Assembly: GCF_900156045.1 (NCBI RefSeq) | Contig: NZ_FTMX01000011.1 | Coordinates: 1-64,000, forward strand | DNA: 64,000 bases | From: Peribacillus simplex | GTDB taxonomy: Bacteria > Bacillota > Bacilli > Bacillales > DSM-1321 | Direction: 5' to 3' | Part shown: positions 60,135 through 63,043 of the stretch, one piece after another | Layout: each line of letters begins with the position of its first letter | Numbering within the stretch: the stretch's first letter is position 1 | Notes under the pieces: model-generated | The model's input: the letters and a program-made list of their open reading frames with translations, nothing else | The model's database searches: none | What the model was told of the DNA's origin: nothing | Program-made: the position numbers and the translations under genes

Positions 60135-60318
60135 AATGGCGAAACAGGCGTCAAATGTTAGCTGCACTTGTAAGACGCACACTCTCTTATCGTATTTAAT
60201 TTTCATATATTTTCCATAATGTGAAAGATATGATAAAATAGAGGGACAACTGAGGATAGAGTGGGAGGTCACTGTTTTGCTTTTCCATCTAATTATAGAT
60301 GGGAAAGGGGGTGGCCGT

Positions 60319-60474
60319 ATGATGCATTTCTTATTGAACTTAATTACAGATATGGGTAAAGAGATATTTGTTGCTGTAGCAACCAGTCTAATCCTGTCTG
60401 CGTTCGCCAAGAAAAGGAAAAAGAACCACTCATCCTCGCAAGATCGCAGTGGTTCTTCTTCTGACCAAGATTAA
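60319..60474 (+). CDS. Small membrane peptide, possible type I toxin
   Basis: The 51-aa product has one hydrophobic helix (residues 2-30, including FLLNLITDMGKEIFVAVATS) followed by a basic stretch (AKKRKKNHSS) and a Ser/Asp/Gln tail (SGSSSDQD). One helix plus a charged tail recalls Fst- and Bsr-type toxins, but I do not recognise a family. AAAGGGGGTGG precedes ATG 60319 (ATG 60322 is possible). A minus-strand terminator sits inside the 3' part of the gene, suggesting an antisense RNA. A plausible plus-strand -10 (TAAAAT near 60234) lies upstream. Confidence 0.55.
   Translation: MMHFLLNLITDMGKEIFVAVATSLILSAFAKKRKKNHSSSQDRSGSSSDQD
60405..60457 (-). terminator. Antisense terminator inside the small peptide gene
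   Basis: Stem AAGAACCACT (60421-60430) with AGTGGTTCTT (60448-60457), perfect 10 bp. On the minus strand it is followed by TTTCCTTTTCTT (complement of 60407-60420). No minus-strand protein gene ends here, so it would end an antisense transcript started near 60.5-60.6 kb. Confidence 0.5.
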
Positions 60475-60511: not shown

Positions 60512-60544
60512 CACCCTCATGTTACCAGCATGGGGGTGTTTTTA
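60512..60544 (+). terminator. Terminator of the small peptide gene
   Basis: Stem CACCCTCATG/CATGGGGGTG (one G-T pair) followed by TTTTT. Confidence 0.75.
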
Positions 60545-60688: not shown

Positions 60689-60717
60689 TTGACTCTTTCT
60701 TACTGATATGGTATGTT
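60689..60717 (+). promoter_or_regulatory. Promoter of the MutS2-like transcript
   Basis: TTGACT (60689-60694) and TATGTT (60712-60717) are spaced by 17 bp, so transcription should begin near 60724, about 415 nt before the MutS2-like ATG. This predicts a long structured leader. Confidence 0.55.
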
Positions 60718-60748
60718 AATTCCAATCTAAGAAAAGGTGTGGTGTTTT

Positions 60749-60772
60749 ATGTCGGGAGTAGGTATCAACTAA
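60749..60772 (+). CDS. Seven-codon leader peptide (putative)
   Basis: ATG TCG GGA GTA GGT ATC AAC TAA encodes MSGVGIN. AAAAGGTG lies 9 nt upstream, a normal ribosome-binding distance, just after the predicted transcription start. The stop codon is inside a perfect hairpin (CAACTAA/TTAGTTG, 60766-60780). Position, size and overlap with RNA structure are those of a regulatory leader peptide used in ribosome-mediated attenuation. No direct evidence of translation. Confidence 0.4.
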   Translation: MSGVGIN

Positions 60773-60785
60773 TTTAGTTGAATAA

Positions 60786-60830
60786 GGTATTTAATCACTG
60801 GTATGCCAGTGGATTAAGTATGCCTTTTTT
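60786..60830 (+). terminator. Leader terminator hairpin 1
   Basis: Stem GGTAT-TTAATC-ACTGG pairs with CCAGT-GGATTAA-GTATGCC (loop TATG, small bulges), followed by six T. The GGTATT at its 5' side can instead pair with AATACC at 60853-60858, so an alternative antiterminating fold is possible. A further hairpin, CACAGTGCA/TGCATTGTG, follows at 60831-60852. Confidence 0.6.
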
Positions 60831-60913
60831 CACAGTGCAATTCTGCATTGTGAATACCTACCTTAAGACTGCTTCCTTTTCCATAAATCGTGTAACATGC
60901 AGGTGTTACGGCG

Positions 60914-60949
60914 AAAAGCATGGTGGGATTTGTCCTATCATGCTTTTTT
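60914..60949 (+). terminator. Leader terminator hairpin 2
   Basis: A 15-bp stem, AAAAGCATGGTGGGA with TCCTATCATGCTTTT (two G-T pairs), loop TTTG region, and run of T. It is preceded by a smaller hairpin GTAACA/TGTTAC at 60892-60909. Confidence 0.75.
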
Positions 60950-61017
60950 GTGTACGCAGGTCTATTCGAGCTGCCCAATTTGTTATCGATTTTAGGTACT
61001 TATCCATAGATAAGGCC

Positions 61018-61092
61018 GATGCCCGCAGGAGCTTTCTACTCAAATGGCTTGTTCATTTGTAAAGGTAGGGGGACCATTGCGGGCATTTTTTT
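61018..61092 (+). terminator. Leader terminator hairpin 3
   Basis: ATGCCCGCA (61019-61027) pairs with TGCGGGCAT (61078-61086), followed by six more T, with a nested stem CAAATG/CATTTG inside. It lies only 47 bp before the MutS2-like ATG, so most transcripts would stop here unless it is prevented from folding. Confidence 0.7.
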
Positions 61093-61138
61093 GGATTCGG
61101 GAATTTTAATCACTCACTCATTCAAGGAGGATCATGAG

Positions 61139-63043
61139 ATGAATACAATGACTTATGAAAAATTACAATATATCCAACTCAAGGAAATGGTGAAAAACCA
61201 TTGCGTAAGCGGTTTAGGAAAAGCGTTATTGGATCAGCTTAAGCCGAGCAGCATTTTGAAAGTCGTTAAAAATCGTTTGAACGAGACAACGGAAGCAAGG
61301 AACTTACTGAATGCGGAAAGCCATATTCCCTTGAAAGGCATTTCACATATTGGACTCCATATCGACAAACTGGAAAAAGGAATGATTTTGGAGCCGTCAG
61401 AGTTAGTGGCGATAGCAGACTTCTTAAGAGGCTGCAGGAATATCAGGAAATTCATGATCGATAAAGAGTTCTTTGCACCAACACTGCATTCCTATGCCCG
61501 GTCCATGACTGAATTCAGGAGCATTGAAGAAGAAATCCAATTCACCATAAAAGGAAATGCTGTTGTTTCCGAAGCAAGCAAGGACCTGAAACGGATCAGG
61601 AACCAAATCATCAAGACAGAAAGTAAAATAGAGGAACGGCTGAATAAGTTCTTGAAGAGCGGAGCCAATAAAGAGTTCATTCAGGAATTTTTCATCAGTA
61701 AAAAGGATGATCGCTACACAATTCCGATCAAAGCTTCCTATAAAAATCAAGTGGCGGGAACGATTGTGGAAGTATCTGCAAAAGGGGCTACCGTGTTCAT
61801 CGAACCTGCCTCGGTGACGAAATTGAATGTAGAATTGGCCAGTTTAAAAGCGGAGGAATCGATGGAAGAGTATCAACTTTTGGCCACATTATCCGGAACG
61901 GTTTTCGAACAGCTGAAACCGATCAAGATAAACATCGAGTTAATCAGTCAATATGACATGATCTTCGCAAAAGCCAAGTTCAGTAAAAGCATGGATGCCA
62001 TCGAACCGAAAATCAATGATCACGGTTATATTAAATTACAGGGCTGTAAACATCCCCTTTTGCCGCAGGACAGCGTACCTTTGGATTTTGAAATCGGGAA
62101 GGACTATCGCAGCTTGATTATTACAGGCCCTAATGCAGGGGGTAAAACAGTCGTCCTGAAAACGATCGGCATCCTTACATTGGCCGTCATGTCAGGGCTG
62201 CATGTTGCCGGGAAAGAAGGAACGGAGCTTGCCGTCTTTGATCAGGTATTCGTCGATATCGGTGATAATCAAAGCATTGAAAATGCACTGAGCACGTTTT
62301 CATCGCATATGAAAAACATCTCGGAAATCATGGGGGCATTAACCAATAACTCCTTGCTGCTGTTCGATGAAATCGGGAGCGGAACGGAACCGAATGAAGG
62401 AGCCGCATTGGCGATTGCCATCCTTGAGGAATTTTATCAGAGGGGCTGCATAACCGTCGCGACCACCCATTATGGTGAAATCAAGCGCTATTCTGAAATA
62501 CACAGTGATTTCATGAATGCGGCCATGCAATTCAACAGTGAAACACTTGAGCCAAAATACAAGCTGTTGATCGGTCAATCCGGGGAAAGCAATGCCCTCT
62601 GGATAGCCAAAAAAATGAATGTTCGTGAACAGGTCCTGCAAAAGGCAAAGCTCTATATCGACAATAAAGACTACGACTTGGAGCGTGTCGAGGAAGGTAA
62701 AATCAAAAAAGCGAAGCCAACGGCCGTTCCTAAGGAAGCATCCTATGAATATGAAGTCGGTGACAAAGTGAAGGTAAGCGAACTGAATGGCTATGCAATC
62801 GTTTATAAGAAAAAAGATTCTTACAATAATGTCACCGTTCTTTTCGAAGATACCTTCAAGGAGGTTCATGCCAGTAGGCTCGAGTTGGAAATAAAGGCCG
62901 TCGATTTATATCCTGAAGGCTATGATCTCAATACTTTATTTGTTAGCTACAAAGAAAGGAAATTGAACCACGACCTTGAACGGGGGTCAAAGAAAGCGCT
63001 AAAGAACGTAGCAGCGGATATCCGGAAGAAGCTTGGTGAATAA
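61139..63043 (+). CDS. MutS2-like ATPase lacking the Smr domain
   Basis: The 634-aa protein has the MutS2 plan: N-terminal lever/clamp helices (about 1-300, KRIRNQIIKTESKIEERLNK, YTIPIKASYKNQVAGTIVEV, SAKGATVFIEPASV), an ATPase with Walker A GPNAGGKT (330-337), Walker B LLLFDE (406-411), GSGTEPNEGAALAIAILEEF and ATTHYGEIK. A KOW-like segment follows (about 545-590, YEVGDKVKVSELNGYAIVYK). B. subtilis MutS2 (about 785 aa) carries a C-terminal Smr nuclease domain; none is present here. MutS2 acts on DNA recombination intermediates and on stalled or collided ribosomes. ATG 61139 follows AAGGAGG; earlier in-frame codons lie in the leader hairpin. Confidence 0.85.
   Translation: MNTMTYEKLQYIQLKEMVKNHCVSGLGKALLDQLKPSSILKVVKNRLNETTEARNLLNAESHIPLKGISHIGLHIDKLEKGMILEPSELVAIADFLRGCRNIRKFMIDKEFFAPTLHSYARSMTEFRSIEEEIQFTIKGNAVVSEASKDLKRIRNQIIKTESKIEERLNKFLKSGANKEFIQEFFISKKDDRYTIPIKASYKNQVAGTIVEVSAKGATVFIEPASVTKLNVELASLKAEESMEEYQLLATLSGTVFEQLKPIKINIELISQYDMIFAKAKFSKSMDAIEPKINDHGYIKLQGCKHPLLPQDSVPLDFEIGKDYRSLIITGPNAGGKTVVLKTIGILTLAVMSGLHVAGKEGTELAVFDQVFVDIGDNQSIENALSTFSSHMKNISEIMGALTNNSLLLFDEIGSGTEPNEGAALAIAILEEFYQRGCITVATTHYGEIKRYSEIHSDFMNAAMQFNSETLEPKYKLLIGQSGESNALWIAKKMNVREQVLQKAKLYIDNKDYDLERVEEGKIKKAKPTAVPKEASYEYEVGDKVKVSELNGYAIVYKKKDSYNNVTVLFEDTFKEVHASRLELEIKAVDLYPEGYDLNTLFVSYKERKLNHDLERGSKKALKNVAADIRKKLGE

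Follow-up and report, generated by a model that had tools for sequence, protein, structure and literature searches.

Why should a genome that already encodes an ordinary MutS2 carry a second, shorter MutS2-like gene, placed behind a long leader with a tiny upstream open reading frame (uORF) and several terminator-like hairpins? The question is raised by positions 60689 to 63043 of a 64,000-nucleotide stretch of Peribacillus simplex DNA (contig NZ_FTMX01000011.1), which is referred to as the window in this study. The answer that we favor, and consider fairly probable, is that the gene encodes an inducible paralogue of the ribosome-splitting MutS2 that has no Smr domain, is placed under ribosome-mediated transcription attenuation, and acts on stalled ribosomes.

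A MutS2-like protein without the Smr domain

The gene and its product are as follows.

61139-63043, + strand, ATG to stop: Smr-less MutS2-like ATPase of 634 amino acids, with Walker A GPNAGGKT at residues 330-337, Walker B LLLFDEIGSG at 406-415, a KOW-like region at about 530-584 and a conserved tail.

The initial annotation of this locus called the product a MutS2-like ATPase lacking Smr, and domain searches bear this out. The NCBIfam model mutS2 (TIGR01069) scored 595.5 bits over residues 4-517 (cut-off 400), and Pfam found MutS_V at 326-504 together with a weak MutS_III below cut-off. Among 24 orthologues (56-96% identity), Pfam recognized MutS_V in all 24, MutS_III in 21 and AAA_21 in 10, and found Smr and MSSS in none of them at E values up to 0.01; both were likewise absent by Pfam from five of five further Smr-less proteins. 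L002 (784 amino acids), the ordinary MutS2 encoded by this genome (G000), served as the positive control, as MutS_V, MSSS and Smr were all found in it. Genome G000 carries a pair of paralogues, the Smr-less L001 and the Smr-bearing L002. That L002 splits ribosomes is presumed by analogy with its Bacillus subtilis homologue.

Walker A is invariant in the 24 orthologues, and Walker B is invariant except at residue 412 (90% or more). The C-terminal part matched the KOW/MSSS region of 22 ordinary MutS2 proteins in a profile-profile comparison (94.4%, E 8.9e-08, 54 columns), in a region where Pfam sees no MSSS. Behind it lies the conserved tail, which opens with LYPxxYD. The distance from the ATPase to the KOW-like region is about 26 residues here as opposed to about 120 in L002, suggesting, from this spacing only, that there is almost no stalk. 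The best solved relatives are 7qv3 and 8qpp, with chains named Endonuclease MutS2; the alignment with them spans profile positions 1-535 and covers the core and the ABC ATPase. We take both to be MutS2 of Bacillus subtilis.

For comparisons across relatives, 234 loci were collected, of which 214 had a MutS2-like frame and 209 were kept, five being dropped as short, truncated or cut (L026, L030, L109, L124 and L161). The 209 were reduced to 137 representatives, 106 Smr-less (567-676 amino acids) and 31 Smr-bearing (781-797 amino acids). As the representatives were drawn from the best matches among those listed plus our own picks, the fractions given below describe the sampled set and not the phylum. 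In an unrooted tree of the N-terminal parts of 63 Smr-less and 27 Smr-bearing sequences (from a quick search without an outgroup, and with two long terminal branches), the two kinds lie on opposite sides of one branch with a support of 100 in the SH-like approximate likelihood ratio test (SH-aLRT).

The leader, its uORF and their distribution

The leader of the window belongs to a type that we call class A, with the uORFs MSGVGIN and MSVVGIN; class B carries VSAVGSK and VSAVVSK. The class-A alignment comprises 41 leaders, 40 of them distinct. The leader is laid out as follows (all on the + strand), with pairing given as the percentage of alignment cells.

60689-60717, +: promoter TTGACT, a 17-nt spacer and TATGTT preceded by TGG; 41/41 distinct class-A leaders have TTGAC and TGnTAnnnT ahead of their uORF.
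60735-60739, +: Shine-Dalgarno (SD) core AGGTG of the uORF, from the sequence; AAAGGT is invariant across the 41 aligned leaders.
60749-60772, +, ATG to TAA: seven-codon uORF MSGVGIN, a putative ribosome-stalling sensor, conserved upstream of Smr-less genes.
60758-60861, +: long-range helix of uORF codons 4-6, GTAGGTAT (60758-60765), with ATACCTAC (60854-60861), a putative anti-antiterminator.
60766-60780, +: hairpin P1 (CAACT/AGTTG) enclosing the uORF stop; 100% of cells paired, with a double change at one pair (C-G, A-U, G-U) among the 40 distinct leaders.
60784-60826, +: T1, a terminator-like or pause hairpin followed by a T-run, from folding and class-A conservation.
60831-60852, +: hairpin H3, CACAGTGCA/TGCATTGTG; 95.6% of cells paired, five pairs changed on both sides.
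60867-60879, +: conserved box GACTGCTTCCTTT, partly complementary to the ribosome-binding region of the uORF, from the alignment and the minimum-energy fold.
60857-61069, +: candidate antiterminator, the proposed pairing of CCTACCTT (60857-60864) with AAGGTAGG (61062-61069, inside T3).
60913-60948, +: T2, a terminator-like hairpin with T-run, from sequence and folding.
61018-61087, +: T3, a terminator-like hairpin with T-run, the last before the gene; -32.9 kcal/mol for 61015-61095.
61124-61130, +: SD sequence AAGGAGG of the gene, from the sequence.

The uORF was counted with a strict motif (a start, Ser, any residue, then V/A/S/I/L; 6-8 codons; at least 4 nt of SD). It was found before 79 of the 106 Smr-less genes and one of the 31 Smr-bearing ones, the average in 20 dinucleotide shuffles being 3.25/106 and the maximum 8; for L171 only 350 nt of upstream sequence entered this count. 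Under a looser definition, which is post hoc and has no shuffle control, the figures were 95/106 and 3/31. These 95 uORFs have seven codons in 83 cases, Asn as residue 7 in 44, Val as residue 4 in 71, and Ser, Leu or Thr as residue 2 in 83, 11 and 1, respectively. Ser2 is encoded by AGY in 54 and by TCN in 29, and this use of two codon families speaks for selection on the residue itself. Other variants include MSEVVSA (genus g43 of f31), VSVVGI and VSVAGI on Enterococcus-like contigs, and MSVVVLN, MLGVVLN, MSESVIN and others accompanying proteins of about 35-42% identity; the uORF recurs on leaders that are otherwise different in sequence. In 79 of the best 80 of 126 matches, the ORF is 6-8 codons long, has Ser2 and is preceded by an SD; in L103 it is shorter.

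Terminator-like hairpins lie upstream of 99/106 Smr-less but 7/31 Smr-bearing genes, as compared with 36/106 in one shuffled set. The initial annotation had described a promoter, a seven-codon ORF whose stop lies inside a hairpin, and three hairpins with T-runs, and had named lack of conservation in related genomes as what would refute it. All of these elements are located in the sequence, and ORF, hairpins and promoter are conserved in relatives.

The leader also appears to be dedicated to this gene. A covariance model, R1, built on the class-A leader (strict filters, E 0.01), matched one copy per genome in 23 of the 43 genomes of the window's family, always just upstream of the Smr-less gene, with no other match. 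G018 gave no R1 match, and its Smr-less gene has a class-B leader. Across 151 genomes of the class, R1 matched the window's leader, two leaders of the Smr-less gene, and one weak site in G157 (E 0.0075) with no Smr-less gene alongside, which was taken as a chance match. A class-B pattern, with up to three mismatches, matched four times in 398 genomes, each time upstream of a Smr-less gene (truncated in G108). No such leader was found on other genes in the genomes searched.

Smr-less members are found both within the window's class and elsewhere in Bacillota, including one Clostridia record (L192, Acetoanaerobium). Named hosts, from the best 80 of 126 matches, include Paenibacillus, Brevibacillus, Oceanobacillus, Psychrobacillus and Jeotgalicoccus, as well as bins of Aerococcus and Turicibacter. 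Presence is patchy, with a close copy (67% identity or more) in 24/43 genomes of the window's family, one of them broken. In L026 (G015) the gene is split into two frames, yet its leader keeps 169.4 bits with the leader model. In G008, G036 (L033), G013 (L058), G031 and G041, fragments of the C-terminus (26-71 amino acids, 77-94% identity) lie about 1.0-3.3 kb downstream of the intact gene, as if the 3' end had been duplicated by an insertion. A 115-kb Paenibacillus plasmid (NZ_CP013204.1, 31209-38095) carries L193, in which the Smr-less MutS2 gene follows an MSVNVLN leader, with an annotated integrase nearby.

Full-length MutS2-like genes also occur in records labelled as Enterococcus or Listeria phages (L189, L190 and L191). 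As the surroundings of L190 and L191 look chromosomal in our reading of the gene lists, and the sequence upstream of L189 nearly equals that of L190, all three are taken as host DNA. A scan of viral contigs matched five stretches, none encoding a relative, and a phage origin was rejected. A defence-system assignment was rejected as well, since the PADLOC matches were weak, short and confined to the ATP-binding site. No recurrent neighbour emerged, the commonest flanking cluster (an ABC-type ATPase by our reading) being present at only 19/80 loci. In the window itself, positions 60277-60474 hold a small hydrophobic ORF with a charged C-terminus, presumably resembling the small membrane peptides of type I toxins, followed by a terminator-like site at 60512-60538.

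Pairing within the leader

Folding of the leader (60724-61138), which the initial annotation had put forward as a check, gave -148.4 kcal/mol, far more stable than shuffles (-104.96, sd 5.87, 100 shuffles; z -7.40). A simple terminator scanner reported none of T1, T2 and T3, and with Rfam nothing in the window reached the gathering scores. In the 40 distinct class-A leaders, the repressed fold is formed in 94.4% of cells (31-43% when slid), and 14 of its 40 pairs changed on both sides, a number equalled by one of 500 shuffles (mean 7.9); part of this excess is built in, because one of the aligned sequences supplied the structure.

In 99.4% of cells, uORF codons 4-6 pair with 60854-60861, with slid controls at 25-50%. 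Of the eight pairs of this helix (60758-60765/60854-60861), two show double changes, a number also attained by 19 of 500 shuffles. A GCA codon at position 4 (Ala instead of Val) is accompanied by a matching change in the partner, and a GGC codon faces GCC. When uORF codons were compared with a site 25-165 nt downstream in all clades, 33/95 leaders beat 95% of their shuffles, as opposed to 3/95 for scrambled uORFs and about 4.8 expected; in a weaker form of the test, 11/79 exceeded all 20 shuffles. Many group-2 leaders have a uORF match of other sequence, GTTCTTAAC/GTTAAGAAC, as expected if it is the pairing itself that is kept.

How the switch might be thrown is a separate matter. The initial annotation had proposed an alternative pairing, GGTATT/AATACC, and the complementarity is indeed present, kept in 90.0% of cells. 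An antiterminator role is not favored, as its covariation (double changes at two pairs, each in a single sequence) is at shuffle level, its score being reached by 119/500 shuffles, and its 3' strand lies behind T1. The neighbouring register TAAGGTA/TACCTTA is kept in 86.4% of cells with no double change. Neither pairing can prevent T1, because the 3' strand is transcribed after the T-run of T1.

As a replacement, we propose the pairing of CCTACCTT with AAGGTAGG, which would reach into T3. This candidate, read from sequence complementarity, beats 95% of shuffles in 27 of the 41 class-A leaders, and L040 has a matching double change, CCTACCA/TGGTAGG; in L045 the box was misplaced in this comparison. 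The resulting order of anti-antiterminator, antiterminator and terminator would be the same as in vmlR (PMC9226507).

Proposed mechanism, alternatives and significance

Bacillus subtilis MutS2 splits stalled ribosomes; its absence makes cells sensitive to chloramphenicol, tetracycline and erythromycin; and its Walker B mutant is sensitive to erythromycin while KOW or SMR mutants are modestly so (PMC10897456). The modest effect of the latter suggests that a version without Smr could still work. For the paralogue described here, we envisage that: without stress, the uORF would be translated and left by the ribosome, its codons 4-6 would pair with the site about 95 nt downstream, and T1, T2 and above all T3 would form, leaving little full-length mRNA; a ribosome stalling on the uORF, most likely through a drug block of early elongation, would release the downstream strand for pairing with the 3' half of T3 and let RNA polymerase continue into the gene; and the protein would then act on stalled ribosomes, possibly splitting them, by means of its MutS-type ATPase and KOW-like domain, allowing the cell to survive the block. 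We tentatively, and with considerable doubt, extend this proposal to the whole family: it might be an ancient, Bacillota-wide ribosome-protection or rescue system, with its dedicated seven-codon MSxV-type peptide as an arrest sequence not described so far, through which stalled elongation itself would be sensed; a single leader could then answer to drugs of several classes as well as to stalls without any drug.

Several observations weigh against the attenuation model. The uORF-downstream pairing stands out in the 33 leaders only and in 0/8 VSAVGSK leaders, and 11/106 Smr-less genes have no uORF even by the loose definition, although one of these, L193, has MSVNVLN. In class A, RNAalifold adds three invariant pairs between the ATGTC of the uORF and a GAC box, and RNA structure may therefore hold part of codon 2. 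The leaders in which the candidate antiterminator passes are mostly Peribacillus relatives, several lineages having no match or none that is significant, and the pairing in L040 itself falls short of the 5% shuffle level. When a ribosome footprint was placed on the uORF, equilibrium folding kept T3 near 0.95 and T2 near 0.87, and T1 at 0.57-0.87 as against 0.59 without the ribosome, so that neither a clear switch nor a clear trend was seen. The missing Smr and stalk might mean that ribosome recruitment has been lost. Finally, the uORF is unlike the sensor ORFs MIN, MR[I/M], MK[L/Q], MAGN and the RLR-containing one, as these appear in the published accounts, and the inducer cannot be read from the sequence for this reason. 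Sensing of phenicols or oxazolidinones through Ser2 as the penultimate residue was considered, but Leu2 in 11/95 uORFs speaks against it as a general rule. Amino-acid attenuation was set aside because the gene is not biosynthetic.

Instead of one drug class, the leader might sense translation trouble in general, such as slow early elongation or termination, collisions or lost rescue capacity, with the protein as a back-up rescue factor for any stall. The sequence of the uORF varies by clade while its length stays at seven codons in 83/95 and Asn7 is kept in 44, as would suit such a role; ordinary MutS2 works on collisions (PMC10897456), and a multi-drug uORF has been reported in E. coli (PMC12121999). 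However, the comparable Bacillota leaders of vmlR, hflXr and cplR answer to drugs (PMC9226507, PMC6310831 and PMC10201436), and we regard general sensing as rather unlikely, if worth keeping in mind.

The stable, covarying fold, the lack of a clear ribosome-dependent switch in folding, and the share of uORF conservation that pairing explains would also fit a structured 5' untranslated region serving RNA stability or autoregulation by the protein, with translation of the uORF incidental. This we find very unlikely, as start, ribosome-binding site, length and Ser2 (in two codon families) are all conserved, and the uORF recurs on leaders of different sequence. Less credible still is an action on DNA, in which the leader would serve recombination control, the role that older work proposes for MutS2. 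Membership of the MutS family, and the description of Helicobacter pylori MutS2 as a recombination inhibitor, favor it, but a ribosome-sensing leader would make little sense for such a protein, and the KOW-like domain has been retained while Smr was lost.

Under the attenuation model, the closest analogue in logic would be HflXr (lmo0762) of Listeria monocytogenes, likewise a second copy of a splitting factor behind a leader with a short ORF and a terminator/antiterminator. It differs in that HflX is a GTPase and the leader ORF has 14 codons with an RLR motif; moreover, drug induction and resistance have been shown for HflXr (PMC6310831), whereas for the Smr-less MutS2 they are predictions. 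The vmlR leader of Bacillus subtilis also has its uORF within a putative anti-antiterminator and a terminator before the gene, but the uORF is MIN and the gene an ABC-F gene, and the leader described here is longer, with three terminator-like hairpins and a switch that is putative (PMC9226507). Very short conserved sensor ORFs also precede the ribosome-protection genes cplR, vmlR2 and lsaA; these are MR[I/M], MK[L/Q] and MAGN, of 3-4 codons and not of the MSxV type (PMC10201436). With MutS2 of Bacillus subtilis (PMC10897456), the protein shares the core and ABC ATPase and retains a KOW-like domain, and it differs in having no Smr, almost no stalk, an extra conserved tail, its own leader, and a place on the other side of the branch.

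Among the open-access matches listed, judged on titles and the beginnings of abstracts, no description of a Smr-less MutS2 under such a leader was found, in agreement with the initial annotation, which had supposed the combination to be undescribed; nor do the accessible portions of the open-access E. faecalis literature mention the Smr-less gene. We rate the control logic and the ATPase as known, and their pairing, the sensor peptide and the reduced domain architecture as new.

The leader offers a ready reporter for finding the inducer. HflXr sets the precedent that a second copy of a splitting factor can be an inducible resistance factor. If our proposal is true, the Smr-less MutS2 would join it as another example, this time derived from MutS2, with a dedicated sensor peptide whose sequence is undescribed and with a range that takes in Bacilli, a Clostridia record and other Bacillota genomes; it would also mean that Smr and the stalk are dispensable for the working of the MutS2 ATPase.

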